From Actinomycetota bacterium (lineage in GTDB: Bacteria; Actinomycetota; Thermoleophilia; Gaiellales; Gaiellaceae), in assembly GCA_003132665.1 (NCBI GenBank), contig PKYN01000019.1, forward strand, positions 17,696-81,695: a DNA stretch of 64,000 nt. Direction: 5' to 3'. Below the pieces are notes generated by a model. It was not told where the DNA came from, made no database searches, and saw only the letters and a program-made list of their open reading frames with translations. Below, one piece after another: positions 1-14,683 of this stretch; positions within the stretch are counted from its first letter, which is position 1, and the number at the start of each line of letters is the position of its first letter. The position numbers were made by a program, and so were the translations under genes.

Positions 1-545
1 AGGAAGCCAAGCGCGAGCAGGATGCCGATCACGGCGAAGATGCCGAGCGCGTTCCAGTAGCCGAGCGGCGTCGAGAGGCGATAGCCGGCAGTTGGGTCGT
101 AGTAGCCGAGCCGGTCGGGGAAGAGGCGCGTGGCGAGCGCGTAGGTCGAGATCGCCACGATCCCGGCCAGTACTCCGCCGAGCACGGCCGGATGCTCGCC
201 GCGCCGGACGAGCGTAACGAGCGCGAGCCCGGCGGCCAGGTAGACGAGCGCCCGCTGCGCCTCGAGCACGCTTTGCGTAGCGTCGAGCGACCAGAGCGTC
301 GAGAGCGCGGTCCAGCCGGCGAGCGCCAGCAGCGCGACAAGCAGCAGTAGCTCCCGGCGCCCCCAGGCCTCGCGGCCGCGGAAGGCGAGCACCAGCGCCG
401 CCGTCCAGGCAAACCCAAGCGTCGCCCAGCTCCAGCTCGTCGGGAAGTAGCCGCCGCTGGCTGCCGCGATCGCGGTCACCGCAGCGAAGGCCAAGACGCC
501 TACGAGAACGCGGCCTTGCTTGAGCCGAGCGGGGGCCAGTGCCAT
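1..545 (-). CDS. O-antigen ligase/polymerase-like membrane protein, 3' end outside window
   Basis: The first 181 codons of an integral membrane protein are present and the gene continues past base 1. The reading frame is open, with alternating hydrophobic segments (VLVGVLAFAAVTAIAAAS near residue 13, ELLLLVALLALAG near 65, and others) and the conserved LGYWNALGIFAV stretch near residue 164. That stretch closely matches FPTGYWNGLAVFVV in the ligase gene at the other window edge. This pattern fits the Wzy/WaaL O-antigen ligase family, which polymerises or transfers lipid-linked glycans in the membrane. The ATG at 545 was chosen; a TTG codon lies directly before it. The catalytic periplasmic loop is beyond the edge, so the function is inferred from the N-terminal half only. 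Confidence 0.75.
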   Translation of the reverse strand, partial: MALAPARLKQGRVLVGVLAFAAVTAIAAASGGYFPTSWSWATLGFAWTAALVLAFRGREAWGRRELLLLVALLALAGWTALSTLWSLDATQSVLEAQRALVYLAAGLALVTLVRRGEHPAVLGGVLAGIVAISTYALATRLFPDRLGYYDPTAGYRLSTPLGYWNALGIFAVIGILLALGF

Positions 546-814
546 CAACCTGCGACTATCTTCCGCCTTTGTCGACGCGCAGTCCAAGCCGCTGGCACTC
601 CCACGAGTTGAACTGGCCCGTTCGACCGGGCGCGTCTTCCCGGGTTCTCGCCCCCATCTCGCTGGCGCGGGCTCTGTCGAAGAGAACGACCTCGATGCGG
701 GGCGACCGTCTCCCCCCCTTTTTCGGAGCGGGTGGCAGAGGTCAACCCGCCCCAGGCAAGACAAGTACGCCCCGCGCTCGCGTTTTTCGGCGTCGCGCGT
801 CAACGACCTCTTTC

Positions 815-844
815 CACTTTCGGTCGTGCCCGCGACCGAAAGTG
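815..844. repeat. Perfect 12-bp inverted repeat (hairpin)
   Basis: The arms are CACTTTCGGTCG (815-826) and CGACCGAAAGTG (833-844), separated by six bases. No T-run follows on either strand, so a classical intrinsic terminator is not evident. Confidence 0.7.
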
Positions 845-887
845 AGCGGGATGCTCTGTTGGATGCTCGCGCCAGGCAGCCGATCAT

Positions 888-911
888 GGCATCCCTCGAA
901 CGAGGGATGCC
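888..911. repeat. Perfect 11-bp inverted repeat with two-base centre
   Basis: GGCATCCCTCG (888-898) and CGAGGGATGCC (901-911) flank an AA centre. The stem is long for chance, and it lies 44 bp from another perfect hairpin. It could be a terminator, a protein-binding palindrome or part of a structured RNA. Confidence 0.65.
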
Positions 912-961
912 GCCGACTGTCGCGGCGCCTGACCCACAGTCGAGGCGAAGGCGAGCGTTGT

Positions 962-1084
962 TCAGTTCCAAGTCGTCGGGGAGTAACCGTTACTCGAGGC
1001 AGCGAGGGCAACGACAGAGACCGCTGCGCAAAGAAAGGTCCTTATAGAGCGGTGCCAGCGCACGAAGACGGAGCTCTTGTTCAA
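962..1084 (-). pseudogene. 5' fragment of an O-antigen ligase-like gene with premature stop
   Basis: A 40-codon frame begins at TTG 1084 and ends at TGA 962-964. It reads like the N terminus of the ligase at 1-545: FLCAAVSVVALAASSNGY then SPTTWN* here, against VLAFAAVTAIAAASGGY then FPTSWSW there. After the stop the same frame continues as TTLAFAS, matching ATLGFAW in the intact gene, so TGA most simply replaces a TGG tryptophan codon. The resemblance decays further downstream and nothing of the rest of the protein is seen. It lies directly downstream of a broken glycosyltransferase end. The homology is read by eye and short. Confidence 0.5.
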
Positions 1085-1104
1085 GGTAGGGCCATTTTCC
1101 TTCA

Positions 1105-1215
1105 AATCGCCACGGAAAGCCGGAGCGGCGGCAATCGCCTCGCGGTAGATCTGCTCGAGAGCTCAGCGCGCCCTCGGGGCGAAAGTTCTCGCGCCAGCCC
1201 CCCAAACTGGCTCCT
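1105..1215 (-). pseudogene. 3' remnant of a GT4 glycosyltransferase
   Basis: The minus strand reads GWRENFRPEGAL, then changes frame to SLEQIYREAIAAAP. The intact glycosyltransferase at 3344-4501 ends with SWRKNFSPEVAL followed by TSLEQIYREAIEHA. The match at both protein and DNA level over about 90 bp shows that this is the tail of a related gene. It carries at least one frameshift and no attached body. A gene head of the same type lies at 7333, about 6 kb away in the same orientation. Bases 1216-1455 upstream show no further recognisable glycosyltransferase sequence. Confidence 0.7.
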
Positions 1216-1455
1216 AATGGAGTCCGAGCCCGAACCGACAGAACTTGCAGAGGACGATTCTGTACACGAGCAATGCCTCGTCCGAACGGTCGACCGGGAA
1301 TCGCCCGAGTTCGCTGACTCGTTTCGGTCTCGATCAGAGTTAGGGTTGCCTCCACGCCTGGACACCCCGGAGCAATCATTGGCCGCGCTTGACAGGTTTT
1401 ACGCCCAATCTGCAGGCACGGAACCGGGCCGATGAAGGCCGTCGGAACCCCAGAC

Positions 1456-2337
1456 TCAATCTCTAAGCGAGGCACGCAGGGCGGTCAGCGCATCGTCGCG
1501 AAGCGCTAAGTAATCGCCTCGAGGGGCAACGGCTTCGGGGTGCGGGAAGACCTCGAGGGCGCGTCTATCGACGAACGGCCATACGAACGAGAAGCCGTGT
1601 GCGTGGAGAACGTCGACTGCGTCTGACCAGCGGATCGGACATCGTTCCTGGAGGCCGTTTGCTTCGAGCAGGATTCCGCAAACTGAAGGTAGAACCGCCT
1701 GAGCGCCTATTACGACGGCTGGTTCCCAACCCTCGACGTCGATCTTGACGAAGATCCGCCGTCCGGTAATCCCGACACGTCCGGCAATCGCGTCTAGCGT
1801 AGTGGTAGTGACTTCGACCGCGCTGCTATCCGCGGACTCACTCAAGTGACCGGTTGTGGGCCCCTTCGGCTCAAAGCCGATGGTGCGGCTCTGGTCGGCC
1901 AAAGCAGCCCGAATGACTATCGTGCGGGGAGAGAGCTGCTCAAGGTTTCTACTGAGGTAATGCACCTGCCCGTCGACTGGCTCTACGGCCACGATCAGGC
2001 CGCCTGAGCCAAGCCTTCTGCCGATCTGTACGCAATACGCGCCAATGTTTGCACCGACGTCCACGAATACGTCGTCGGGTTTGAGGATGCTGTCTAATGC
2101 GAAAAACGCATCGACATCGTGACGGCCGCTCGGAATGTAGACGGCAACCGGCCCTGTAAGAAAAAGATCATCGCCGACGGAAACTCTGATGGTACGACCG
2201 GGACTTATGCGCCGTCGGATGTTGTGAACGAACCACCTTACGAAGGCCCGAAGTCGGTGAGTTGCATTCTCCGGGTGGTTCAGCGTGAGCGCAAGAACAC
2301 CTGGAAGCAAGCCGCGTCTTAACATGAAGCGTGTCAT
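1456..2337 (-). CDS. FkbM family methyltransferase
   Basis: A SAM-dependent methyltransferase of the FkbM type, which O-methylates sugars or other small groups in polysaccharide and natural-product pathways. The SAM-binding motif is DDVFVDVGANIGAYCVQIG, followed by the acidic strand VAVEP. The C-terminal KIDVEGWEPAVVIGA motif is typical of the family. Of several possible starts, ATG 2337 (MTRFMLRRG) places a normal-length N terminus before the conserved core; ATG 2325 is also possible. The frame stays open further upstream, but that part has no family resemblance. It lies in the minus-strand exopolysaccharide run downstream of another methyltransferase and probably decorates the same glycan. 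The target is unknown. Confidence 0.8.
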   Translation of the reverse strand: MTRFMLRRGLLPGVLALTLNHPENATHRLRAFVRWFVHNIRRRISPGRTIRVSVGDDLFLTGPVAVYIPSGRHDVDAFFALDSILKPDDVFVDVGANIGAYCVQIGRRLGSGGLIVAVEPVDGQVHYLSRNLEQLSPRTIVIRAALADQSRTIGFEPKGPTTGHLSESADSSAVEVTTTTLDAIAGRVGITGRRIFVKIDVEGWEPAVVIGAQAVLPSVCGILLEANGLQERCPIRWSDAVDVLHAHGFSFVWPFVDRRALEVFPHPEAVAPRGDYLALRDDALTALRASLRD

Positions 2338-2628
2338 CTGGCTATGGCAAGAGACCAGACGTCCGACCGTAGCACGTTCCCAATCCGTATTGCGACGAAG
2401 CCGCGATGCGCAGTACGTGAAGAGAGAGGGCGAAGCGGTACCAGGATCTCCGAGGGATAGGGGTACTGCGAGCGCTTCATCCACCGCACTCGAACCGCTT
2501 TCGAAGGCGGGCCGGCCGGTGCAAGTCTCACAGACACGATCTTGATCACCGGGCACCTGCTCACTCCGCAGCTCGCCCACGGTCCGTCCGCCGGACCTTT
2601 CGCCACCGCCCCCGTTTTTAGGCGCATT

Positions 2629-3357
2629 TCATTTTTGCGCCTCTATGTAAAGTGATTCCGGCTTATATTCATTGCCGCGTTTATCCAGATCTAACCCATA
2701 GTGATTCCAATTAGGGATTAAGCTGGTGTTGTAACTTCTGAGTTGAGGATTCTTGTATCCAAGGCCTATTAATAATGCGCTTAAGCTTATTCTATCGTAC
2801 ATCCACTGGAGAGTTTCGCCTCTTCGTCTTGCATCCCCAAGAAACACGTTTTCAATAAACCTTCTGAAGGGTTTCTGTTGGCTTGTACCGTATGCCTCTC
2901 TTCGCACAGCTAGCTCAATTATCTCAGCGATATAGGAGTCATGATTGCTGGCTTCAGTACTGTCGTTATCAGAAATTGCGATGTGCGATATATAGCCTCG
3001 GCAGGTTTTTTCTAAATCTGGGACGACTAGGCGGTGAATACCGCCTGGCTTGAGCACCCGTCTGATTTCCAATAAGAGTATCCGAGCAATATCTTTATCA
3101 AGATGAGCCAGGAAGTGAGAATGGTACACGGCGTCTATAGAGTTTGAGTTAAAAGGAAGCCCTTTTGCCAAGTTACGAACCATTATGTTGTCAGGTAACG
3201 ATTTGAAGCGTTCTAAGCGTTCGCCATTGACCAACAAAGGCACAATAGTCCTCAATAAACGGTTTCTCTTCAGCCGCAGGTATATAGACCAGTCAATGTT
3301 GGTCACGTCGGGGTTATCACTTGTTTTAGTCCCGCAACCAAGATTAAGTATCTTCAT
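2629..3357 (-). CDS. SAM-dependent methyltransferase, AT-rich
   Basis: A class I methyltransferase of 242 residues. It starts MKILNLGCGTKT (SAM-binding glycine motif), has a DAVYHSHFLAHL segment and then LLEIRRVLKPGGIHRLVVPDLE, typical of methyltransferases in glycan clusters. The chosen start, ATG 3357, sits seven bases after a GGAG ribosome site. It overlaps the end of the glycosyltransferase upstream by 14 bases, suggesting coupled translation. Base composition is visibly AT-richer than neighbouring genes, and AT-ending codons are frequent, which suggests transfer from another genome. The substrate cannot be told from the sequence. Confidence 0.8.
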   Translation of the reverse strand: MKILNLGCGTKTSDNPDVTNIDWSIYLRLKRNRLLRTIVPLLVNGERLERFKSLPDNIMVRNLAKGLPFNSNSIDAVYHSHFLAHLDKDIARILLLEIRRVLKPGGIHRLVVPDLEKTCRGYISHIAISDNDSTEASNHDSYIAEIIELAVRREAYGTSQQKPFRRFIENVFLGDARRRGETLQWMYDRISLSALLIGLGYKNPQLRSYNTSLIPNWNHYGLDLDKRGNEYKPESLYIEAQK

Positions 3358-4501
3358 TGCATTCTCCACGTTCGAATGGGGCGTGCTCGATTGCCTCGCG
3401 GTAGATCTGTTCGAGAGAGGTCAGTGCCACCTCGGGGCTAAAGTTCTTGCGCCAACTCTCGTTGGCGCCCTGGCCTAGCCGCTCGGAGGTCGCGTCGTCG
3501 GCGAGCACCTCAACCGCCTCGGCCCAAGCGTCGGCATCGTCTACCCGAACCAGAAGGCCCGAGATGTCGTGGCTTACGTGCTCCGGAAGGCCTCCGATGT
3601 CGCTAGCGATCACCGGCACGCCCGCGGCCAGCGCCTCGATCACCGCGCGCGGCGATCCCTCATAGCAGCGCGACGGGTAGAGCAGCGTTCGCGCCCGGCT
3701 TAGTAGGCCAGCCGCTTCGTCCGATTCAACCCTTCCGCGGAACTCCACACCTGGGCGAGCAAGCGCCTCCAAGCGCTCGCGCTCGGGCCCGTCGCCGACG
3801 ACCAGCAGCGGCAGCGGCGAGCGCCAGGAGCCGATCACAGTATCCAGACCCTTCTCCGCTGACAGCCTGCCTAGGATCAGAAAGTACTCGCCGGGCCCGC
3901 GGCGTCGCTCCGCCGGCCAGGCAAAATTACGGCGCACAACCATCCGCTCCGGATCGAGACCCGCGAAGCCGAGTTTCTGCCGTTGGAACTCGCTCAGCAC
4001 GATGAAACGGTCAACACGATCGAAGGTTCGAATCGCTCGGTGTAGTGCCAATGATGTCGCCAGCACGGAGCTGGCCGAGCGCGAGTCGCGGTAACAGCCG
4101 TGCGCGATCCCGCGCCAGGGAACGTGGCCGAGGCAGTCTTCGCAGATCCGGCCGTCGCGCAAGAACGTAGCGGGAAGACAGGAGAGGCGAAAGTTGTGCA
4201 GCGTCATCACCGTCGGTAGATCGATGCGCAGAACCGCGGGCGAGAGCATCGGAAATACGTTGTGGGCGTGAATCACGTCGATCTGCTGCTCGGACACCCG
4301 TCGCGCCGTTTCCGTCCGAGCACGTCTCGACCAGACCGCGTCTATTCCGGCGCGGATCGCGCCCATCTGTTCGTACCGCGGCGTCCAGGCATCGACGTGG
4401 TTACCACCTTCCGATAGGAGCCGGAATTCATCCTCGACGACGCGGTTCTCGCCTGAATTGCTTCCGCTCGCGTAGCGAGAGTGAAGAATAAGAACGTTCA
4501 T
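3344..4501 (-). CDS. GT4 family glycosyltransferase
   Basis: A cytoplasmic GT-B fold glycosyltransferase of 385 residues that transfers a sugar from a nucleotide donor to a lipid-linked acceptor. N-terminal domain: MNVLILHSRYASGSNSGENR, then VIHAHNVFPMLSP and TLHNFRLSCLP. C-terminal donor domain: FLILGRLSAEKGLDTVIGSW, VGDGPERERLEA, and the EGSPRAVIEALAAGVPVIASDIGGLPE nucleotide-sugar loop with its conserved glutamate. It ends WRKNFSPEVALTSLEQIYREAIEH. Broken relatives of this gene (head at 7333, tail at 1215) lie on both sides, so it may have replaced or been duplicated from an older copy. The donor and acceptor sugars are unknown. Confidence 0.88.
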   Translation of the reverse strand: MNVLILHSRYASGSNSGENRVVEDEFRLLSEGGNHVDAWTPRYEQMGAIRAGIDAVWSRRARTETARRVSEQQIDVIHAHNVFPMLSPAVLRIDLPTVMTLHNFRLSCLPATFLRDGRICEDCLGHVPWRGIAHGCYRDSRSASSVLATSLALHRAIRTFDRVDRFIVLSEFQRQKLGFAGLDPERMVVRRNFAWPAERRRGPGEYFLILGRLSAEKGLDTVIGSWRSPLPLLVVGDGPERERLEALARPGVEFRGRVESDEAAGLLSRARTLLYPSRCYEGSPRAVIEALAAGVPVIASDIGGLPEHVSHDISGLLVRVDDADAWAEAVEVLADDATSERLGQGANESWRKNFSPEVALTSLEQIYREAIEHAPFERGECNEDT

Positions 4502-4705
4502 TTACCTACTCCCTGTCGCCGAAAATAGAGAAGAAGATGAGGCGTTCCGATTCCTGGCCATTCCGCATCCATCGAAGATCGTATAGGGACATGTGAGGCC
4601 GGAAGCTAACGTCTGCAGCAAGACCACCGTTCGGTTTCTTGCTTTGTTCCGCCATCTGCGAGGCCATCGGTGTGAGTTGCTAGGACGCGCACGTCTGTCT
4701 CCCGC

Positions 4706-5425
4706 TCAGCGAGCTTTCGACGCGTTGATGGCTTCGCTGTTCGTCGCAGGAAGAAGCCCTCGCTCAGAGGCTTCCTCGAGGAGGAACTCGAGTTCGCCCC
4801 AGAGACCCAGCGTCTCGATTTCCCTGCTGTGCCCCCAGATATGTAAGAGCAATCCGTGGTCGCCCGCGACACTCACCATCTCTCCAAGCCTCGCCCGCAC
4901 GGTTCTCGAGCGCGACCACGCTTTAAGATACGCGACGGTTGGGATAGAGCGCCACTTTATAAGGTGTCCATACGTCCTCAAGCGTGTGTGGGGGTAGAGC
5001 TGAGCTGATGGGATGATCAGGCCCGGTTTCTGGCGACGACCCCCAAGGATCGGCGCTGTTCGTACTAAGAAACCGTTAGCGCCTAGAGTCGTGATCCCTG
5101 CTTTCGAAACGAGACCTCGCGGGGGAGCGACGATGGCGTGCGGCTCTGCGAACATCCGGATTTGCTCTTCTGCCCACGCAACCTCCTTCATGAGCTCCTG
5201 CATGGAGAGCTCGGTAAAGAGCCGATGCGAGCGGCCGTGATTGCCGATCTCGTGCCCAAGCGAAACGACCTCTAGAAGAGCGTTGTCGTCGAGCGTTCGC
5301 CGACCAGCCGGCCCGGTCGTTGCGTAGAAAGTTCCTCGGTAGCCGTACTCCGCCAGTAAGCGCCCAAGCACCAGGTCTTCGGGCGTTCCGTCGTCCCAAC
5401 TCGTCGTGAGGATCGCGACGGTCAC
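4706..5425 (-). CDS. Polysaccharide deacetylase (NodB-like)
   Basis: A 239-residue carbohydrate esterase of the polysaccharide deacetylase family, expected to remove acetyl groups from N-acetylated sugars. The metal-binding aspartates are in TTSWDDGTPED near residue 10, and the two histidines are in GHEIGNHGRSHR near residue 58. A later LLLHIWGHSREI segment supplies the C-terminal catalytic histidine region. No signal peptide is visible, so it probably acts on cytoplasmic or lipid-linked intermediates. GTG 5425 is the start; it overlaps the TGA of the upstream glycosyltransferase (GTGA), implying coupled translation. A 204-bp gap to the next gene shows nothing notable. Confidence 0.85.
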   Translation of the reverse strand: MTVAILTTSWDDGTPEDLVLGRLLAEYGYRGTFYATTGPAGRRTLDDNALLEVVSLGHEIGNHGRSHRLFTELSMQELMKEVAWAEEQIRMFAEPHAIVAPPRGLVSKAGITTLGANGFLVRTAPILGGRRQKPGLIIPSAQLYPHTRLRTYGHLIKWRSIPTVAYLKAWSRSRTVRARLGEMVSVAGDHGLLLHIWGHSREIETLGLWGELEFLLEEASERGLLPATNSEAINASKAR

Positions 5426-6606
5426 TGGCGGCCTCGCGCAAGCCGGCCGAGCCTCGTCGCCCTTCGTATTGGATCGGCAGATAAAGCGAGCTCGATCCCA
5501 TCGGCGAAGCGCCTCACCATCGACGCTCCCGTGTAGACCAATCCCGAAGCTGCAGCACCGCGCTCGAGGTTCGAACGAAGCGCATGGTCGGTGAGCACTT
5601 CGAGGATGCTCTCCCCATATTCCCTTGGAGAGGAGTCAGACGGAAGGATTAGTCCGTTGACTCCGTGCTGGAGGTACTCGATCTCTGGTCCGTGGGTCGG
5701 AACCGACGTCGTTAATGTAGGAAGACCGGCTGCGAAACCATCGACCAGTGCGAGCCCGACGGCGCCAGGAAGGAGAAGGACATCCGCAGTCGCAAGCAGT
5801 AGCGCCTTTCTGTCATCTTCAACCGGGCCAACCAGCCTAGCATATGGCCGAGTGGAGACGGCGACTGCAAGATCGCGTCGATTCGGCCCGTCTCCAGCGA
5901 TCACAAGGCGAAAACGCGGTTGCTTTTTATAGACGTGATCTCCGGCTTCCAGGAGATAGTCGAGCCGTTTATCGTCGTAAAGGCTCCCCAGAAAGAGTCC
6001 CACGGGGCCTCCGTCCAGCGCGAACTCCTCTCGTACCGCATCTTGCTCACTCGAGCCAAGAGCGGCAATCCGCTCTCGCAACAGTTCGGTCGAAGACGCG
6101 TTCTGCGTGACCGTGATACGGTCGGGCGGATAACCGAGAGCAACGATGCGCCGCTTTGCGCCCTCCGTATACGCGAACCACCAGTGAGGTAAGCGAAAGA
6201 CTCGTCGCTTGACAGCCTCCGAGAGGCGAGAAGCCCGAAGGGCATTCAGGCTCCCGCCGTGACCCCAGAACGCCACTCGCACTCGGCGTCGATACTGCTG
6301 GGCGAGCAGCCAGTAGTTGAGTAGAAGACGACCTCCCTCATCGGCGATCACTAGGTCTGAATTGAGAGCTTCGTCCCTGCACGGCTGCCAGATAAAAGTC
6401 CGGCCGGCGATTCGGAAAAACCTGTTCGGACGAAAAACGGCCCAGTCGAGTCTCACCGCTTGCTTTCGCATCGCTATCTCGTTTTCGGGGTATCCTCGGA
6501 TTACGACGAACTCGATTTCGCGCTCGGCGAGGACACGGCGGAGAGACGAATGGAGTTCCAACTGGTAGGACGGTACCCAGCTACACATACAGAGCACACG
6601 CTTCAT
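5422..6606 (-). CDS. GT4 family glycosyltransferase
   Basis: A 394-residue GT-B glycosyltransferase. It starts MKRVLCMCSWVPSYQLELHS, has an AFWGHGGSLNA acceptor-side loop, VGLFLGSLYDDKRLDYLLEA at the start of the donor domain, VIAGDGPNRRDL, and VGLALVDGFAAGLPTLTT followed by GPEIEYLQHGVNG near the end. These are hallmarks of GT4 enzymes in capsule and O-antigen clusters. The ATG overlaps the stop of a truncated glycosyltransferase fragment upstream (ATGA), and its own stop overlaps the deacetylase start. The linkage it forms is unknown. Confidence 0.85.
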   Translation of the reverse strand: MKRVLCMCSWVPSYQLELHSSLRRVLAEREIEFVVIRGYPENEIAMRKQAVRLDWAVFRPNRFFRIAGRTFIWQPCRDEALNSDLVIADEGGRLLLNYWLLAQQYRRRVRVAFWGHGGSLNALRASRLSEAVKRRVFRLPHWWFAYTEGAKRRIVALGYPPDRITVTQNASSTELLRERIAALGSSEQDAVREEFALDGGPVGLFLGSLYDDKRLDYLLEAGDHVYKKQPRFRLVIAGDGPNRRDLAVAVSTRPYARLVGPVEDDRKALLLATADVLLLPGAVGLALVDGFAAGLPTLTTSVPTHGPEIEYLQHGVNGLILPSDSSPREYGESILEVLTDHALRSNLERGAAASGLVYTGASMVRRFADGIELALSADPIRRATRLGRLARGRQ

Positions 6607-6795
6607 GGGCTCACCAACCGCACGGGGAAGTCACCCGACATGTGCTGCATCGAGGGGCCAAGGTAGGACTCCTCTCCTTCTGAAAAGAAAAAAGAAGTAG
6701 AACGTGATCTGTAGCCGCTCGGCGGGCAGCTCGTACAACGGGCGGCGGTAATAGGGGCATAGATTCGTGATGAAAGCGACACGCGGAGGGCTCAT
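6603..6795 (-). pseudogene. N-terminal fragment of a glycosyltransferase with homopolymer frameshift
   Basis: It begins at ATG 6795 behind a good ribosome site (AAGGAG, nine bases upstream) as MSPPRVAFITNLCPYYRRPLYEL, the usual start of a GT4 enzyme. The frame is lost in a T-rich run and resumes one base off as SEGEESYLGPSMQHMSGDF, ending at TGA inside the ATGA start of the next gene. The rest of the enzyme is missing. This is a fused relic: the head of one glycosyltransferase joined directly to the start of another. Confidence 0.65.
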
Positions 6796-6800
6796 ACTAC

Positions 6801-6932
6801 TTAGCTCCTTTCCCGAGGATTATGCGGCACCCTTGTCTGGAGGAGGCGTGATCCGAACGACCGCGGCGCGAGTATCCAAGCGAAGGCCTCGGTGATGTTC
6901 GCAAGCATATCGTAGAACTCCTGAGTCTTCAT
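6801..6932 (-). CDS. Small hypothetical protein (43 residues)
   Basis: A short frame starts MKTQEFYDMLANITEAFAWILAP at ATG 6932, five bases after GAGGAC, and ends at TAA 6801-6803 inside the ribosome-site region of the glycosyltransferase relic. It has an amphipathic or weakly hydrophobic centre and a basic tail. I do not recognise a family. It may be a real small gene upstream of the relic or the head of a truncated gene; the AT-rich junction DNA nearby favours the second. Confidence 0.3.
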   Translation of the reverse strand: MKTQEFYDMLANITEAFAWILAPRSFGSRLLQTRVPHNPRERS

Positions 6933-7120
6933 TTCTCGTCCTCTATACCGTAGTTAACCCTTGTTACGAAGTGACGGTTTATACCTCTCTCGTCGTTGGG
7001 CGGTAGTCGTATGTAATCACCGTACATTTAGGTTAAATTTTTATCACATTGCTTTGGAAGCAACGCCCGTGTATCTCCGATACTTTAGCTTCTCCCCTTC
7101 GGCGAACCAAGCTCTAGTTA
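6933..7120. other. AT-rich junction DNA
   Basis: No gene is recognised. The stretch is clearly AT-richer than the window average, with long A/T runs near 7030-7050, and separates two glycosyltransferase relics. It probably marks a recombination junction in the exopolysaccharide locus. Confidence 0.45.
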
Positions 7121-7333
7121 TTAACTCTCTTTATAGCCCCACGAACCACCTACATTTACAACTAAGTCGCTCTTGTCGTAAGCAAACAGCATCGCCATGC
7201 CATCGTAGCCGCTTACAGCCGGGTTCATGCACTTATTATTGCATCCTAGGAGCTGGGATTCATCCTCGACGACGCGGTTCTCTCCCGATGCGGCTCCGGA
7301 GAGGTATTGAGAGTGGAGAACGAGAATGCGCAT
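7121..7333 (-). pseudogene. Glycosyltransferase head fused to unrelated sequence
   Basis: From ATG 7333 the first 29 codons read MRILVLHSQYLSGAASGENR then VVEDESQLL, nearly the same as the start of the intact GT4 enzyme at 4501. After codon 29 the homology stops abruptly and the frame continues for about 40 codons into AT-rich sequence (NPAVSGYDGMAMLFAYDKSD) until TAA 7121. The start overlaps the TGA of the flippase by one base, as expected for an operon gene. This is the surviving head of a glycosyltransferase broken near 7246. A tail of the same type survives at 1105-1215. Confidence 0.7.
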
Positions 7334-8589
7334 CAGTGCTGTTCTGCAGGCAAGGGAAGTGCCGTAGCCCGCTCGTGCTCCGGACGAATAGCGATAATCA
7401 CTAGCGCACCTGATGCCACAATCTCGCTGCCGAACGTTCCCCAGGCAACGCCGGTCAAGCCTCGCGTGGACGCGAGCGCGGGCAAGATCGCAAGCGTCGC
7501 GACCAACCCAACCAGCTGCGCGAAAAGCAGCGCACGTCCGCGGCTCTGTGCCTTGAGCAACAGTGGGAAGCCCGTTGCCGTCGCGGCGACGATCTGAGAC
7601 AACCCGATCGGGAGCACAATCGTGTGGAAGCGGGTGAACTGTTCGCCGAAAACGACGGTAAGCAGACCGGGGGAAAGCGTGAAGACGATCACGTATAGCA
7701 TCGTGAGCGCAGTCACGGCACAGGAGAGATACAGCGTGAGCAGACGCGCAGCATGCGACGACTCCGCACGGGCTCGGACGAGTGCCGGAAGGCCCGGGAG
7801 TGCGATCGCCGGGCCGAGCAACGACAGTGGCGAGAAAAGCGATTGCACCGCCCTTAGACCGCCAAACGCCGTACCGCCGAGAAGCGCCACCAACATGAGA
7901 ACCGTGCCGTACGTCGCCAGGCTGTACGTGATGCTTCCCAGAGCGAGCCAGCGGCCGAGTGACCACGCCTCCTGCCGCCACCATCTGGAAGCAGCCCCGA
8001 TCGCAATGGGGATGTATCCGGTTTGAACAACGCCTACTAGTGCGGCGACTAGAGCCCCGACACCCCAGCAGCCCACTATCGCCCAGTCATCGCCGATCGA
8101 CCAAGCGAACGGCGCCAAGATTCCCATAACAACCAACCAAAGCCCATCGTTAGCTGCCGCGGCACGCGCGCGTCCGTCCCGGAAGAGCACGGTTCGCCAG
8201 AAGTCCTGAACCAACGCCACCGGCAGCCAGAGAGCAACGACGAAAACCCCCTGTCCGAAGCGTCCTCCGATCAAAGCAGCGGCAGCAAAAGCGACTATGG
8301 TCATCCCTGCGGCGCCCGGCAGGACAACCATGAGCGCAGCTCGTCCCGCTAACCGACGGGCGACCTCACCGAGGGCCGAGGAGCTGGCGACAAGTGGATC
8401 GGTCACGAGACTGCGCTGAAACCCGAGCGCAATCAGGTAGAGCGTGAAACCGACGACAACCGCGGCGAGCCCTCCGGGGCCGAGTGCGCGCCCGGCGAGA
8501 ACCATAAGACCAAAATTCGTGGCCGACGAGAAGGCCTGGTCAACGAACCCCCAGGCAAAGCCACTGTAGCGGGCGCGGAACCGTTTCAT
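7333..8589 (-). CDS. Wzx-type polysaccharide flippase/transporter
   Basis: A 418-residue integral membrane protein with about 12 hydrophobic segments and MATE/MOP-like organisation. It begins MKRFRARYSGFAWGFVDQAF followed by SSATNFGLMVLAGRALGP, the common start of Wzx-like exporters that move lipid-linked repeat units across the membrane. It sits between polymerase and glycosyltransferase genes, as expected. Its start overlaps a short upstream frame (ATGA) and its stop overlaps the head of a broken glycosyltransferase. The substrate glycan is unknown. Confidence 0.8.
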   Translation of the reverse strand: MKRFRARYSGFAWGFVDQAFSSATNFGLMVLAGRALGPGGLAAVVVGFTLYLIALGFQRSLVTDPLVASSSALGEVARRLAGRAALMVVLPGAAGMTIVAFAAAALIGGRFGQGVFVVALWLPVALVQDFWRTVLFRDGRARAAAANDGLWLVVMGILAPFAWSIGDDWAIVGCWGVGALVAALVGVVQTGYIPIAIGAASRWWRQEAWSLGRWLALGSITYSLATYGTVLMLVALLGGTAFGGLRAVQSLFSPLSLLGPAIALPGLPALVRARAESSHAARLLTLYLSCAVTALTMLYVIVFTLSPGLLTVVFGEQFTRFHTIVLPIGLSQIVAATATGFPLLLKAQSRGRALLFAQLVGLVATLAILPALASTRGLTGVAWGTFGSEIVASGALVIIAIRPEHERATALPLPAEQH

Positions 8590-8786
8590 CGCTCGGCCGC
8601 TTCATGCCGAAAGACCAGCCCGCGCCGAGCCAGCGCGGCCCGATTGTAGGGAGAAAGCGCGGGCACCCTTCCCTGGCTCGAGGTAGCTTCGCGTAAAAGG
8701 GCATCCCTAGCCTCTTCCGCACAGCAGGCATGCAGGGCCCCGAGTTGTTCAGAGAAAAGCTCACCAATAACAATCGCGAACGGCAT
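8586..8786 (-). CDS. Hypothetical 66-residue protein
   Basis: The frame starts MPFAIVIGELFSEQLGALHA at ATG 8786 and ends at TGA 8586, overlapping the flippase ATG (ATGA), so it is positioned like an operon gene. It contains two cysteines and a basic C terminus (ALARRGLVFRHEAAER) and has no membrane segment. A stop codon lies two codons upstream of the ATG and no strong ribosome site is visible, so it may be the tail of a larger lost gene. No family recognised. Confidence 0.35.
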   Translation of the reverse strand: MPFAIVIGELFSEQLGALHACCAEEARDALLREATSSQGRVPALSPYNRAALARRGLVFRHEAAER

Positions 8787-8905
8787 CGCCTAGATACGCA
8801 AAACGACGTCATCATGTGACTGGCGAGCCACGACTATCTCATCTGCGCAAGTTTGCATAGCGTATCTTTCTCCTACTCGCGATGGTCAAGTAAGTAACGG
8901 AAGCG

Positions 8906-9398
8906 TCACGTCGTCGTCAGTACGATCTCCAATACCTCACTAAGCGCTATCGCCGCAGTTTGAGGTGTCTGCTGACTCATCATCGCTTCTCCGCGCCGCG
9001 CGATATCCTTCATAGTGTTTGGTTCGATAATCGCTCGCTTCATCGCCGCCCTAGAGCTCCCTTTTCGAATGCGTCAAACACGAGCCCCGTTTCTTCGTGA
9101 CGTATTAGATCGGTAGAGTTCCCGTCTTGAGATGAAGTAATAACCATTTTTCCGAAACGTAGTGCCTCGAGAGTCGCCACGCTTCTGTAGTCGCGGAACG
9201 ATAGCATTACGAACGCGTCTGCGACCCCGTATATCGAGCCGATAGCATCCTCTGGTATCTGTCCTAAGAACCGCACTCTATCCTCATCTACTAATCAAGC
9301 CGCTTTCAGAAAGACCCGATAGCGTAGTACTGCGCCAGCAGCTCGAACATCGGCATTCTGTAGTGAGCTAGACGATTGGTTACAAATGCGATTTTCAC
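8906..9398 (-). pseudogene. GT4 glycosyltransferase with internal deletion and frameshift
   Basis: The gene starts at GTG 9398, overlapping the polymerase stop (GTGA). It gives an intact head, VKIAFVTNRLAHYRMPMFEL then LAQYYAIGSF*, and stops. After a gap the donor domain resumes (RFLGQIPEDAIGSIYGVADA, FVMLSFRDYRSVATLEALRF, STDLIRHEETGLVFDAFEKGAL). A one-base shift near 9045 moves the rest to another frame (AMKRAIIEPNTMKDIARRGE and on to LEIVLTTT*), ending at TGA 8906-8908. About 200 residues of the middle are missing. It is plainly a decayed member of the same operon. Confidence 0.8.
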
Positions 9399-10738
9399 AA
9401 TCGTACGGGCCTCTGAAAGACTGCCTCTTCGTCCTGCAATGCCAGCAGCGCGCCGAGGGAATAACCTACAACACTCGCTACGGGAGCAATTACGAAGAGG
9501 TACACAAGCGGATTGTCAGTGATCATCGCCAAGAGCACGGCTCCGAGAGACAAAGCGCTGGCCCGCAGCAGGTATGCAATGGTTGGCGACGTCCGAGCAG
9601 CCGAACGCGCACGAAACAACCGCGCGAAAAGCGACAAGTACCCAACTAGGAACATGAAGAGACCAATAGCGCCAAGATCGTGAAGCAACCGGAGGTAGTC
9701 GTTGTGGGGATGGTCATCTCCCGGATACTTCTGTTTTACCAGGGTTTCGGCAGAACCCACGCCGTGACCTATGAGGGGCGAACTCTCGTAACTATTCCAT
9801 GTGAGAGACCAGAGTTGCGCTCGGCCACTAACGTTGATCTCGAATCCTGCAACAGACCTCACGTCGCCCTTGCTAAAGCGCGACGAGAATGATGTGTGTG
9901 TTACCGCGAAAAACGCGACGGCGGCGATCAGCGCAGTGACCGCTAATGAGCGAGCAAAGCGCCTGAAATCGACAAGCGCGAGAACGGCGATGAGTACTGC
10001 TGAGAGAGCCGCCAGTCGAGACAGACTGAGGAAAACCATCGTCAGGCTAACCGTTCCGACAAGCATTCCTTCACGGAAGCCATGCCGATAGCGTGCGGCG
10101 CCCCACGCAACACCGAGCATGCCGAATAATGCGTAGGAACGAGGCCCAGCGACAGCCGAGCCGCCGATCCCCGACGTTAGAAGACTCATGAGGTAGAACA
10201 ACGCGCCTATGAGGAACGTGACGTCGACCAGCCGAGCGAAGTTTGGCGGGCTTATGGCTCCCGTACGAGCGGACGTGGCTGATACCAGGATGAGCGTCGG
10301 GAATGAGATGTAGAGAAGGATGTTCTGCATTCCGTCCACGGATGGATGACTCCAAATCGCCGAGATAACTGCCCATACCGCCAGGCCGAAAAAGGGGAAG
10401 AGAACACTCTGGAGTCTGGTAGCCGTGCCGAGAGCGCTACTGGTGAATGAGACGAAGACTAGGAGGATGGTCAAAACGATCGTGAGAACTGCGTACGCCG
10501 ACACACGGCCTGCGCTGATGTGACCCGGCGTGTCTATGACTGCGCTGACGAGGATGCAAGCCGCGGTCGTTAGGCCAGTAATGGCCATACACTTGGCTGT
10601 GGCAAGCACGCCGATCAATACAACGACAGTCACTATGAGAAAGGCAAGCTCGGCCTTCGCAACGAGAAGAGGACCGAGAGTAAGCGACAAAGCAGCGGCA
10701 GATCCCCAGACGGCGATTGCTGGGTGACTGCGAATCAT
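9395..10738 (-). CDS. O-antigen ligase/polymerase (Wzy/WaaL-like)
   Basis: A 447-residue membrane protein with 10 to 12 hydrophobic segments. The family loop near residue 340 reads RAQLWSLTWNSYESSPLIGH followed by GVGSAETLVKQKY and DDHPHNDYLRLLHDLGAIGL, with the conserved arginine and histidine used for glycan transfer. It polymerises or ligates lipid-linked repeat units outside the membrane. The start is ATG 10738 (MIRSHPAIAVWG), which overlaps the stop of the upstream wecG-like gene (ATGA). A longer frame upstream exists but would lie inside that gene. Translation of the next, broken, glycosyltransferase was coupled through GTGA. Confidence 0.88.
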   Translation of the reverse strand: MIRSHPAIAVWGSAAALSLTLGPLLVAKAELAFLIVTVVVLIGVLATAKCMAITGLTTAACILVSAVIDTPGHISAGRVSAYAVLTIVLTILLVFVSFTSSALGTATRLQSVLFPFFGLAVWAVISAIWSHPSVDGMQNILLYISFPTLILVSATSARTGAISPPNFARLVDVTFLIGALFYLMSLLTSGIGGSAVAGPRSYALFGMLGVAWGAARYRHGFREGMLVGTVSLTMVFLSLSRLAALSAVLIAVLALVDFRRFARSLAVTALIAAVAFFAVTHTSFSSRFSKGDVRSVAGFEINVSGRAQLWSLTWNSYESSPLIGHGVGSAETLVKQKYPGDDHPHNDYLRLLHDLGAIGLFMFLVGYLSLFARLFRARSAARTSPTIAYLLRASALSLGAVLLAMITDNPLVYLFVIAPVASVVGYSLGALLALQDEEAVFQRPVRL

Positions 10739-11523
10739 CGGTAGCGCTCCGCACTTCTGGCGGAAACCCGCACTTGTCTTCCATGTCGGCATACGTCGTA
10801 GGCGACGGACGTCACGAAGGCAGCATTCGTCGTCAGGTACCGGCGGCCGAGCCGCCGTGACTCTACGGCGAGACGAAAGAGCCATTCGAGTCCGAGACGC
10901 TGCAACCAGCGTGGAGCCCGCGCCTTAGTACCGGCGTGGAAGTCGAAGGCCGCCCCTACGCCAAGCGCGAGCGCGGGAGCGAGCGCGGCGGCGTTTCGTC
11001 GCATCCACAGCTCTTGCTTTGGCGCTCCGAGGGCGCACCAGACGAGATGGGGCCGTGCCTCCCGTATCTCCGTAACGACCGCGTCCAGCGCCGCGTCATC
11101 GCCAAACGGCGCCGATGTGCCCGCGATCTCGATCACGGGAAAACGCTTCCTCAGCCGGCATTCGAGCCCACCCAGCACCTCGGGAGTCGAGCCGAGCAGG
11201 AAGTGACGTAGCCCGTGCGCCAGGCCGTGCTCAATCGTCGCCGGCATCAGGTCCGGGCCGGCGACACGGTTAGCGTGCCGCTCCCCCGAGCGACGCAGGA
11301 GCCAAGCAATCGGAGCGCCGTCGGGGAAGACTGCCCAGGCCTCCTCGAGCGCGTCGCGCAGTCTCGTATTCCGCTGCGCCGTCACGAGAACGTGGACGTT
11401 GCAGAGAACGGCGAAGCCTCCTTCTCCCGACAGCGCGCGCGTTACGACGAGGTCGGCTGCGTCCTCGACGCTACCCGCGAAGCAGGGAACGGCGAGGGCC
11501 TCGGCGGTTGGGAAATCGCTCAT
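10735..11523 (-). CDS. WecG/TagA/CpsF family glycosyltransferase
   Basis: A 262-residue GT26 enzyme that adds the second sugar to an undecaprenyl-linked primer, typically ManNAc or a related hexosamine/uronate. Conserved features: FPDGAPIAWLLR near residue 67, NRVAGPDLMPATIEHG near 85, GAPKQELWMRRN near 167, and GVGAAFDFHAGTKARAPRWL with LGLEWLFRL near 190-215. The length is normal. It lies between the initiating sugar transferase and the polymerase, the expected place for a second-step enzyme. The stop overlaps the polymerase ATG. The precise sugar is not readable from sequence. Confidence 0.9.
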   Translation of the reverse strand: MSDFPTAEALAVPCFAGSVEDAADLVVTRALSGEGGFAVLCNVHVLVTAQRNTRLRDALEEAWAVFPDGAPIAWLLRRSGERHANRVAGPDLMPATIEHGLAHGLRHFLLGSTPEVLGGLECRLRKRFPVIEIAGTSAPFGDDAALDAVVTEIREARPHLVWCALGAPKQELWMRRNAAALAPALALGVGAAFDFHAGTKARAPRWLQRLGLEWLFRLAVESRRLGRRYLTTNAAFVTSVAYDVCRHGRQVRVSARSAERYR

Positions 11524-11532
11524 CGCCGGCGA

Positions 11533-13070
11533 TCAAACCGCGGCGCCCCGCGAGACGATGGGAACCGTACGCAGGATGAGCTTCAGGTCGCCGCTAATCG
11601 ACCAGTTCGTGACATACGAGTAGTCGAGCTCGACCATCTCTCCGAAGGGAATCTCGTCGCGGCCCAGCACCTGCCACGGCCCGGTGACGCCGGGCTTGAG
11701 GTCAAGCCTGTGTCGTGCCCAGTCGTTGACGAAGTTGTCCTCTTCCAGGATCAGCGGCCGGGGGCCGACCAGGCTCATGTCTCCCATGAAGACATCCAGC
11801 AATTGCGGCAGCTCATCCAGCGAATAGCGACGCAGGAAGCCCCCTACACGCGTGATTCGGGGGTCGTCGGGGATCTTGAACATACGCGGATCGCCGCTGC
11901 CTTGAGCGTGCTTGCTTAGATGGCGAACGTCCGACTTCATCGCGTCCGCGTCGGCCTGCATGGTGCGGAACTTGAAGATCCGGAAGGTCTTGCCGTTGTG
12001 CCCCATGCGCACCTGCCTGAAGAAGACCGGCCCCTTCGAATCGAGCTTGATGGCGACGGCGATCAGGCCGAAGAGCGGGGCGAGCACGAGCAGCCCGAGC
12101 GCCGAGAGCGTCAGATCCATCGCGCGCTTGAACAGGATCGAGGACTTCGGCAGGCGGGCGGGCCGCAGGCCCAGGAGCGGCAGGCCTTCGATCGAGTGAA
12201 CGTCCATGCTCGGCGAGAGCACATCGAAGAAGAAGGGCACGACGTCGATCTGCACGTCGAGCTCGCGCAGCTCGCGGATGAGGCTGACCACACGCTGTCG
12301 CTCGGCGCACGGGAAGGCGACGATTATCCGCTCGACCGAAAGCGCGCGGCAAAGGAACGGCGCCATTGCCAGCGACGAGAAGTACGGAAAGCCTGCCAGA
12401 TCCTCCTTCGCCGGGTCTTCTTTTACGACGTCGTCGATCACGCCGACAAGCTCGAGGCCGTACTCGGAATGGCGCTGCAGCTTGCGTGCGATCAGCTCGG
12501 CCCGGCCGCGCCACCGCTGCCGACGACGAGCGTGTTCTGTAGATAGCTCGCGCTGTGGCGACAGGCGATGCGCCCAAGCACGCGCCCCAGCGACATGAAG
12601 GCGACGGCGGCGAGCCAGAAGATCGCCATCTTGAGCCGGTTCGGATCGATCGTCCCCGAGAGCGATCCGGCGAAGAAGGTAACGCAGGTGCCGACCGTGA
12701 CCAGGTGGAAGACGCCGCCGACGTCGTCGATGGTCGTGTGGTCGGTGCGCTCCTCGTCGCGCGAGTAAAGGCCGTAGAGGCGAGCCGCCACCACCCAGAG
12801 CGGCAGCACGAGCAGGAAGAGCAGCCATTCCTCCCTGCGGCTGATCGCGTCTACGCCACCCGACGACGGGGTGGCGAGCTGGGCCAGAAGGAAGGCGCCG
12901 ATCAGGCCGAGAACGTCCGCCACGAGTAGGACTCTGCGCACGAGCCAGCCGCGCCCGTGCGTTCTCGCGGTTCCCGACGGGTCGAAGAGAGGCGGGGTCG
13001 GGGACGAGACCGCGTCCTTCAGCCGGGCGAAGAGCTCGGCGTCGAGCGCGGTTTTCGAGACCGTCCTCAC
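11533..13070 (-). pseudogene. Undecaprenyl-phosphate sugar transferase (initiating enzyme), one frameshift
   Basis: Together the two frames encode a full polyprenol phosphate sugar-1-phosphate transferase of WbaP/CpsE type. The N-terminal part, from GTG 13070 (overlapping the kinase stop, GTGA), has membrane segments and reaches TLVVGSGGA. The rest continues in another frame as GRAELIARKLQRHSEYGLEL and runs through the catalytic domain: KRAMDLTLSALGLLVLAPLF, FRQVRMGHNGKTFRIFKFRT, LRRYSLDELPQLLDVFMGDM, SLVGPRPL. The frame changes near 12500-12515 inside a GC-rich run; one extra G restores GGAGRAEL. Either a real inactivating mutation or a sequencing error would explain it. The enzyme starts repeat-unit assembly, so its state decides whether the locus works. 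Confidence 0.85.
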
Positions 13071-14683
13071 TCGCTCGCCCCGAACTGCGCGCTCACCGTC
13101 TCGCCGTCCGGGAGCGTGTAGCCGTAGCCGTAGCCGTAGCCGTTCCTCTCCTCGACTCCCGTCAGGACGAAGCCGAGCTTCTGCGCCGGGCACTGCTCGA
13201 GCGTGCGCGCCAGCTCGCGCAGCGTGTTCCGGTGCAGGTGCTCGAGCCGGGTCACGATCAGCATCGCGTCCACGCGGCTGCTGAGCGTCATCGCGTCGCC
13301 GACCTCGAGCAGCGGCGGCGCGTCGATCAGCACGGTCTCGGCCAGCTCGCCAAGCTCGGCGAGCACCTTCGCAAGCGCCTGCGTGCCCACGAACTCGCCT
13401 GGGCTAGGAGGCAGCGGCCCGGAGTGGAGAATGCCGAGCGCACCTTCTTCCGACGATCCGGTGAGTATCGGCCGGCCTGCATAGCTGGAGCGATTGGAGA
13501 GATCGGTGGAGCTGACGAGGGTGATCGCGTCCTCGAGCGCCGCCTTACCGAGCACCACGTCGGTCAATCCAGGGGTGTTATCCAGCCCGAATAGCGCATC
13601 CAGGCGCGGCCGGCGCAGGTCGAGCTCGACCAGAACCACTTGCCGCCCGGCGCGGGCGAGCGTGAGGGCGAGGTTGGCGGCGGTCGTCGTCTTCCCCTCG
13701 CCGATCAGCGCGCTTGTGACCATGATCGTCCTCGCCTCGCGCTCGAGCGTGACGAAATCGAGGTTGGCGCGAAGCATCCGGTAGGCCTCTCCCTGCGGCC
13801 CGCCCGGGCGCGCGAGCATGACCAGCTCATTTCGCTTACGCAGGCTCTTCGGCGGCTCCGGCAGGCGCGCCAGCAGCGGCAGCCCGCCGAGCGCCCGCCC
13901 GGTTTCCTCCGCCGTGCGCACGCGCGTGTCGAGGGCCTCGTAGAGGAGGGCGAGCCCGATTCCGAACATCAGCCCGAGCAGCAGGCCCAGAATGCCGTTG
14001 CGGCGCGTGCGCGGCTGCACGAGCACCGCGTTCTGGGCAGCCTGAACGACAGAGACGTTCGAGGTCTGTAGCGTCTCCATCTCGTGCAGCCGCTCGTCGC
14101 TTTGCGCGTAGGACGCGTACAGCGCACTCGATGCTCCTCCGCTTGCCCGCAACTTGGCCATCTGATTCTCGACGTGACGGCGGGCGCTGACCAGCGCGGT
14201 GGTGTCGAGCTCGTGGCGGTAAGCGACGAACTGGCGAGCGTACTCGGTGGCGAGCGCGACCGCGAGCATGGGATTGTGGTCTCGCACCGCCATGCCCATC
14301 GTGTCGGCGTTCGCTGCCGGAGCCACCGATGAACGGGAGAGAAAGCTGTCGACTGCCTCGCTACCGAGCCCCGAGGCGCTCAGCGTGCGCCGGACGACGG
14401 TGGAAACGCGCGCCAGTTTGGCCTGGGTCTGGAGGTAGCGATCGGGATTGATTTGAGAACTGTTCCCGTTGTTGGTATTGGTGAGTGTGGCCGCCAGATC
14501 CTGGTTGCTGACCATCACCTCGGCCGAGGCCTGGTAGAGCTTCTGCTGGTTCAGCGAGAGCAGAACCGCAGCCAGCGGAACGATTACGAGCGCCATGACG
14601 ATGATCCACATCCGCCGTCTCAATACGGCGAGGTAGTGCCTCAGCGTGACGCTCTGGGCTTGATCGCTTGAGAGTTCTGGCAA
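13067..14683 (-). CDS. Wzc-type polysaccharide co-polymerase with tyrosine autokinase domain
   Basis: A 538-residue fusion of a chain-length (Wzz) domain and a BY-kinase. Wzz part: a membrane segment at about 28-46, an extracellular region, and a second membrane segment near 230 (GILGLLLGLMFGIGLALLYE). Kinase part: Walker A SALIGEGKTTTAANLA near 325, Walker A' LVELDLRRPRLDALF near 352, Walker B VLIDAPPLLEVGDAM near 452. The tail has alternating glycine and tyrosine (NGYGYGYGYTL), the usual autophosphorylation cluster. It controls chain length and export of the polymer. Its stop overlaps the sugar-transferase GTG. It appears to be the first gene of the operon. Confidence 0.9.
   Translation of the reverse strand: MPELSSDQAQSVTLRHYLAVLRRRMWIIVMALVIVPLAAVLLSLNQQKLYQASAEVMVSNQDLAATLTNTNNGNSSQINPDRYLQTQAKLARVSTVVRRTLSASGLGSEAVDSFLSRSSVAPAANADTMGMAVRDHNPMLAVALATEYARQFVAYRHELDTTALVSARRHVENQMAKLRASGGASSALYASYAQSDERLHEMETLQTSNVSVVQAAQNAVLVQPRTRRNGILGLLLGLMFGIGLALLYEALDTRVRTAEETGRALGGLPLLARLPEPPKSLRKRNELVMLARPGGPQGEAYRMLRANLDFVTLEREARTIMVTSALIGEGKTTTAANLALTLARAGRQVVLVELDLRRPRLDALFGLDNTPGLTDVVLGKAALEDAITLVSSTDLSNRSSYAGRPILTGSSEEGALGILHSGPLPPSPGEFVGTQALAKVLAELGELAETVLIDAPPLLEVGDAMTLSSRVDAMLIVTRLEHLHRNTLRELARTLEQCPAQKLGFVLTGVEERNGYGYGYGYTLPDGETVSAQFGASE
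13118..13141 (-). repeat. Four tandem copies of a 6-bp unit in the kinase tail
   Basis: GTAGCC occurs four times in a row on the plus strand and encodes the Gly-Tyr run of the kinase tail. Gain or loss of a unit would change the number of tyrosines without breaking the frame. Confidence 0.85.

Follow-up and report, generated by a model that had tools for sequence, protein, structure and literature searches.

Glycosyltransferase gene remnants on either side of a gene block in a putative surface-polysaccharide locus of a Gaiellaceae bacterium

Gene order and the two remnants

We analysed a 64,000-nucleotide stretch of DNA (hereafter, the window; contig C15, PKYN01000019.1, positions 17,696–81,695 of the forward strand) from the draft genome of a Gaiellaceae bacterium (Actinomycetota; assembly GCA_003132665.1; 2.15 Mb, 77.5% complete). 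A putative surface-polysaccharide locus in the window holds an intact GT4 glycosyltransferase gene, here called C, and two short remnants of the same GT4 subfamily—one matching the start of C (the head) and the other its end (the tail)—with a gene block that includes C between them. The genes concerned are all on the minus strand and are transcribed from high to low coordinates, in the order initiating glycosylphosphotransferase, WecG/TagA, Wzy_C protein, a broken glycosyltransferase, flippase-like protein, GT4 head, the stretch 6796–7246, the glycosyltransferase at 5422–6606, deacetylase, C, methyltransferase, FkbM methyltransferase, GT4 tail, a truncated polymerase copy (polymerase′) and an intact polymerase (Table 1). 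A first-pass annotation had described the block as containing a deacetylase, methyltransferases and another glycosyltransferase, and the family matches bear this out. C, the glycosyltransferase at 5422–6606 and WecG/TagA lie in one operon, in keeping with a Wzx/Wzy-dependent locus.

The head comprises 29 codons, and its ATG overlaps the flippase stop by one base (TGATG). It is identical to the start of C at 65 of 87 nucleotides (75%), with a local alignment score of 67 (top score among 300 shuffles, 43) and a tblastn E value of 9e-9 in a 14-kb region, so that the head, coupled to the flippase stop as first annotated, is confirmed. SGENRVVEDE, the N-terminal motif of the GT4 subfamily of C, is present, and the head has 17–24 of its 29 residues in common with the 13 relatives most like C (10–16 of 29 with the other 23 relatives that have an N-terminus).

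The tail aligns with the end of C over 1134–1196 and, beyond a 2-nucleotide deletion, reads on to a TGA at 1102–1104; codons on either side of the deletion fit C in two different frames. Its alignment score is 79 (top score among 500 shuffles, 31), and blastn against C gives 85% identity over 62 nucleotides (E value 2e-7). The tail had been placed at 1105–1215: the remnant itself is real and the firm match ends at 1196, beyond which, to approximately 1226, a weak LG..GA-like resemblance was seen by eye alone and is not relied upon. Head and tail thus align to opposite ends of C, as had been proposed.

Six bases (AGGAAA; tight operon spacing) separate the TGA of the tail from the ATG of polymerase′, the polymerase fragment that had been reported downstream of the tail. 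A profile of the polymerase N-terminus, built on 30 sequences (the window's own and 29 from relatives), matched polymerase′ with an E value of 3e-8 (next-best piece, 1.2). The frame opened by the ATG closes after four codons, and similarity goes on in a different frame. Between polymerase′ and the intact polymerase lie two perfect hairpins, at 815–844 (12-bp arms) and 888–911 (11-bp arms), which possibly mark the end of the operon; neither was called in a terminator scan.

Table 1 Genes and gene remnants of the locus, in order of transcription
Feature	Coordinates	Strand	Basis and remarks
Initiating polyprenyl glycosylphosphotransferase	11533–12828	−	TIGR03025 1.6e-94, exceeds family cut-off
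WecG/TagA	10735–11523	−	TIGR00696 1e-45
Wzy polymerase	9395–10885	−	PF04932 (Wzy_C) 1e-18; the domain includes ligases too
Another glycosyltransferase remnant	9040–9398	−	Head-like piece 9306–9398 (by eye) and C-terminal half 9040–9276, without a middle
Flippase-like membrane protein, Wzx candidate	7333–8589	−	Hydrophobic sequence and position
GT4 remnant, head, codons 1–29	7247–7333	−	Similarity to start of C
Possible glycosyltransferase head, frameshifted	6606–6795	−	By eye only; ends at ATG of 5422–6606
Second intact glycosyltransferase of the block, GT4 subfamily other than that of C	5422–6606	−	PF13692 1.6e-20
Polysaccharide deacetylase	4706–5425	−	PF01522 2.5e-11
Intact GT4 glycosyltransferase C, subfamily of head and tail	3344–4501	−	PF13692 4e-27, PF00534 8e-26
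Methyltransferase, 43.5% G+C	2629–3369	−	PF08241 1e-8
FkbM-family methyltransferase	1456–2580	−	PF05050 4e-13, TIGR01444 3e-17
GT4 remnant, tail, last ~33 codons, frameshifted by 2-nucleotide deletion, ends TGA	1102–1196	−	Similarity to end of C
Polymerase′, truncated N-terminus of second copy of the downstream polymerase/ligase-like membrane protein	962–1095	−	Profile E value 3e-8
Intact polymerase/ligase-like protein, N-terminal part	3–545	−	Extends past the window edge over an NN gap

Relationship of the remnants to C

Judged by sequence, both remnants belong to the GT4 subfamily of C. We compared third codon positions across 37 relatives (36 for the head, L084 having no N-terminus; the set omits L046 and L047 and four phylum-search rows without an assigned locus, namely G443, G408 and the second match in each of G680 and G581). 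The head is identical to C at 22 of 29 such positions (76%; at most 15 of 29 in the 36 other relatives) and the tail at 15 of 20 (75%; at most 12 of 20 in the 37). In trees of 16 sequences (C and 15 of the 37 relatives), the tail was placed with C by amino acids (12.1 log units ahead; approximately unbiased (AU) test, 0.93) and firmly on the C branch by nucleotides (20 log units ahead, AU 0.999), and the head was placed weakly on that branch by nucleotides (3.4 log units ahead, AU 0.79). The objection that head and tail might group with different glycosyltransferase subfamilies therefore does not arise.

The subfamily is rare nearby: of 102 other genomes searched in the family, two have relatives at E ≤ 1e-40, and five congeners have none. 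Across the genome itself, C had 13 matches: C, the head and 11 glycosyltransferases at 29–38% identity, on which ground we rejected another genomic copy of C as the source of the fragments. A search of the genome_contigs set with C gave only four distant loci (31–33% identity).

The missing middle

Head and tail represent codons 1–29 and about the last 33 of a gene of ~385 codons. Codons ~30–348 (about 320, >80% of the gene) were not found in window positions 1–14000 outside C, and when the middle part of C served as query in a sensitive search, with C masked, only the glycosyltransferase at 5422–6606 (30% identity) and chance matches were returned. The two pieces do not add up to a whole gene, as they would after a single insertion; an insertion alone is thus insufficient, and either a replacement or an insertion followed by deletion is needed. 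The first-pass reading, in which a new sugar-gene block had entered an older operon inside this gene, accordingly keeps its same-subfamily ends and loses its simple split. Apart from the GT4 pieces, the borders carry no repeats of at least 24 nucleotides, shorter duplications being indistinguishable from chance, and a scan of six intact genes, in the block and at its borders, recognized no mobile-element protein.

Neighbourhoods in related genomes

Homologues of the flippase-like protein (E ≤ 1e-20) were found in nine other genomes, one of 102 in the family and eight of 395 in a draw from the phylum. In four of the nine, a GT4 relative lies within 1.1 kb of the flippase homologue—directly downstream in G029, ~1 kb downstream in G603 and G408, and just upstream in G593—which supports the flippase–head pair as an old neighbourhood; in G565 the distance is ~5 kb. 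No locus read has a C-type GT4 gene before the same polymerase, and the tail–polymerase′ half of the proposed older operon is therefore represented only by the scrap in the window. A GT4-then-polymerase arrangement in G466 (L119) was rejected as a bridge, as its polymerase looks to be of another type, with a short match to the window polymerase (E value 1e-5). In another genus of the family (G083; L086, 2438–3565), a 47% homologue of the gene at 5422–6606, not of C, lies upstream of a polymerase homologue, a hint that the polymerase can bound a variable stretch.

Proposed history of the locus

We suggest that an older operon ran flippase, a GT4 gene (P) and polymerase′, that the middle of P was replaced and that its ends were left as scars. 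Most of P (codons ~30–348) would have been lost as a ~6-kb gene set comprising a glycosyltransferase, a deacetylase, the replacement GT4 gene C and two methyltransferases moved into its position, probably over two or more steps of illegitimate or homology-assisted recombination and deletion. What remained would be the first codons of P, still linked to the flippase gene, and a scrap of ~240 bp in which the end of P is followed by the beginning of polymerase′. Frameshifts have since degraded these scraps, which presumably yield no useful product, and the enzyme of this type that functions today would be C. We infer both the order of these events and the taking over of the role of P by C. To this explanation as a whole, including a Wzx/Wzy-type surface-polysaccharide locus rebuilt through module replacement, we give about an even chance of being right.

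Several observations weigh against it. When head and tail are modelled as a single sequence, the fit drops by 5.9 log units (likelihood ratio 11.86; P = 0.003, chi-square with 2 degrees of freedom); ratios for 16 real genes trimmed to these columns ranged from −0.2 to 8.0, all 16 lower than that of the fragments, in a test that is underpowered at 49 codons. Amino acids alone do not place the head with C and give it no informative position, the C branch scoring 1.5 log units less than the best placement (AU 0.056). The searches of the family and the phylum found no flippase–GT4–polymerase row in any genome, so that the related genome with such a row that the first-pass annotation had looked to was not found (G029 has the flippase–GT4 pair only), and no colinear locus with an uninterrupted gene was found in the relatives searched.

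The likelihood ratio is also the chief point in favour of head and tail being leftovers of two GT4 genes of the same subfamily, each truncated separately, one having lain behind the flippase and the other, nearer to C, before polymerase′. The two pieces have diverged from C to different depths (8 of 60 nucleotides differ in the tail, 22 of 87 in the head): either the tail is closely related to C and the head only distantly, or unusual first codons in C or in the head account for the difference. The third-position identities to C, however, are similar for head and tail, and the head–C differences are skewed, with 20 in the first 51 nucleotides and two in the last 36 (Fisher P = 0.0003), so that the first codons of C or P may be the unusual part. 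Two genes would moreover mean that one locus had contained three members of a subfamily that is rare locally. Because two extra paralogues in one locus are less economical, we keep a single parent gene as likely, though unproven, and regard two separate parents as unlikely, if deserving of serious consideration.

Partial copying of C by duplication within the locus, as the origin of either fragment or both, would suit the tail, which is clearly sister to C. At residues 2 and 11, however, where C has Asn and Ala, the head has Arg and Leu, which among the 13 relatives most like C are found in all 13 (Arg2) and in 7 (Leu11), indicating that the head was not copied from present-day C and telling against the possibility, raised at first pass, that both pieces arose in this way. 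The tail, for its part, is tightly spaced with polymerase′, which does not follow C, and the head occupies the site at which G029 has its flippase–GT4 pair. We consider such copying improbable.

The skew within the head could also be read as a crossover point, at which DNA arriving with a C-type GT4 gene recombined with the resident P within the conserved SGENRVVEDE motif; on this view the first ~17 codons of the head would stem from P, the last 12 would be C-like, and C would be the incoming partner. C and G121 differ in part in the same manner over these stretches (21 of 51 nucleotides, then 7 of 36), and the apparent mosaic may therefore be mere conservation; we hold this version, taken with its assignment of the head, to be a slim prospect. 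If it were true, conserved ends of glycosyltransferase genes would be built-in homology anchors for cassette exchange.

An assembly chimera, in which two strain variants of the locus were joined by the assembler, would be in keeping with an incomplete draft and with the NN gap that abuts the window; genes that were intact until an assembler cut them would keep their frame, however, whereas the tail and polymerase′ are frameshifted, and we think a chimera very unlikely. A clean insertion of the block at one point of P has head and tail in the correct order and orientation around the block in its favour, but with ~320 codons absent and no mobile-element protein among the genes scanned it survives only as insertion with later deletion, and we take it to be almost certainly wrong.

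Comparison with known polysaccharide loci

Remnants of replaced genes are well documented in polysaccharide loci, and the two-ended GT4 remnant is an ordinary scar of module exchange. In the Salmonella Gal-initiated O-antigen clusters, according to the part of the report available to us (PMC3715488), wzy remnants occupy a fixed place, are group-specific and decayed 'by serial deletions' once another gene had replaced wzy; a recombination junction bears a remnant element, insertion sequences are involved and intact relatives are known. The window resembles this system in having remnants of replaced genes, but the Salmonella remnant is, in that part of the report, a polymerase gene, whereas here GT4 ends lie 6 kb apart and no intact relative of the locus was found. 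The K and OC loci of Acinetobacter are modular and, in the sections available (PMC3628348), contain broken glycosyltransferase genes and the remnants qnr and itrB2; the glycosyltransferase breaks described in those sections are insertion sequences inside the gene, unlike here, where the middle is gone. Small aliB-like gene fragments are present in most pneumococcal serotypes among the heavily recombining streptococcal cps loci, as excerpted from another report (PMC5111408); in the excerpt these are of a different kind of gene from that found here, with transposase genes nearby. A literature search on exopolysaccharide clusters of Gaiellales found nothing.

Such remnants record former products of a polysaccharide locus and the sites of module exchange. 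Here, they suggest that the flippase–polymerase stretch is the replaceable part of the locus in a little-studied lineage, a finding that is useful locally and leaves general understanding unchanged.

Other remnants and base composition

The head and tail are not the only signs of turnover. The remnant at 9040–9398, between the Wzy_C gene and the flippase gene, matches PF00534 with its C-terminal piece (3e-11) and with its joined pieces (7e-12). Together with the possible head at 6606–6795, for which a Pfam search gave no match, and with polymerase′ beside the intact polymerase, it points to repeated replacement and decay. Between the GT4 head and the possible head at 6606–6795 lies the stretch 6796–7246 (450 bp, 48.6% G+C), which holds broken short frames. 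A LicD remnant, suggested here by a resemblance ('YGDYIRLPP'), was rejected: neither the pieces nor the read-through matched Pfam, and PF04991 found nothing anywhere in the genome (matches were obtained in 4 of 14 control genomes). The 200-bp gap between the deacetylase gene and C (4502–4705) contains a short open frame without a recognized family and is possibly another remnant.

Among the intact genes, the flippase-like protein had no match in Pfam or NCBIfam. The start given for the FkbM methyltransferase comes from the open reading frame finder, and the real one is probably further in. The NN gap (L011, 17694–17695) lies immediately left of base 1 of the window, within the intact polymerase gene, which resumes beyond it. 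This gene has a G+C content of 71.6%, compared with 65.1% for the window and 43.5% for the methyltransferase gene at 2629–3369, which overlaps the end of C by 26 bases and is likely to be a recent arrival.

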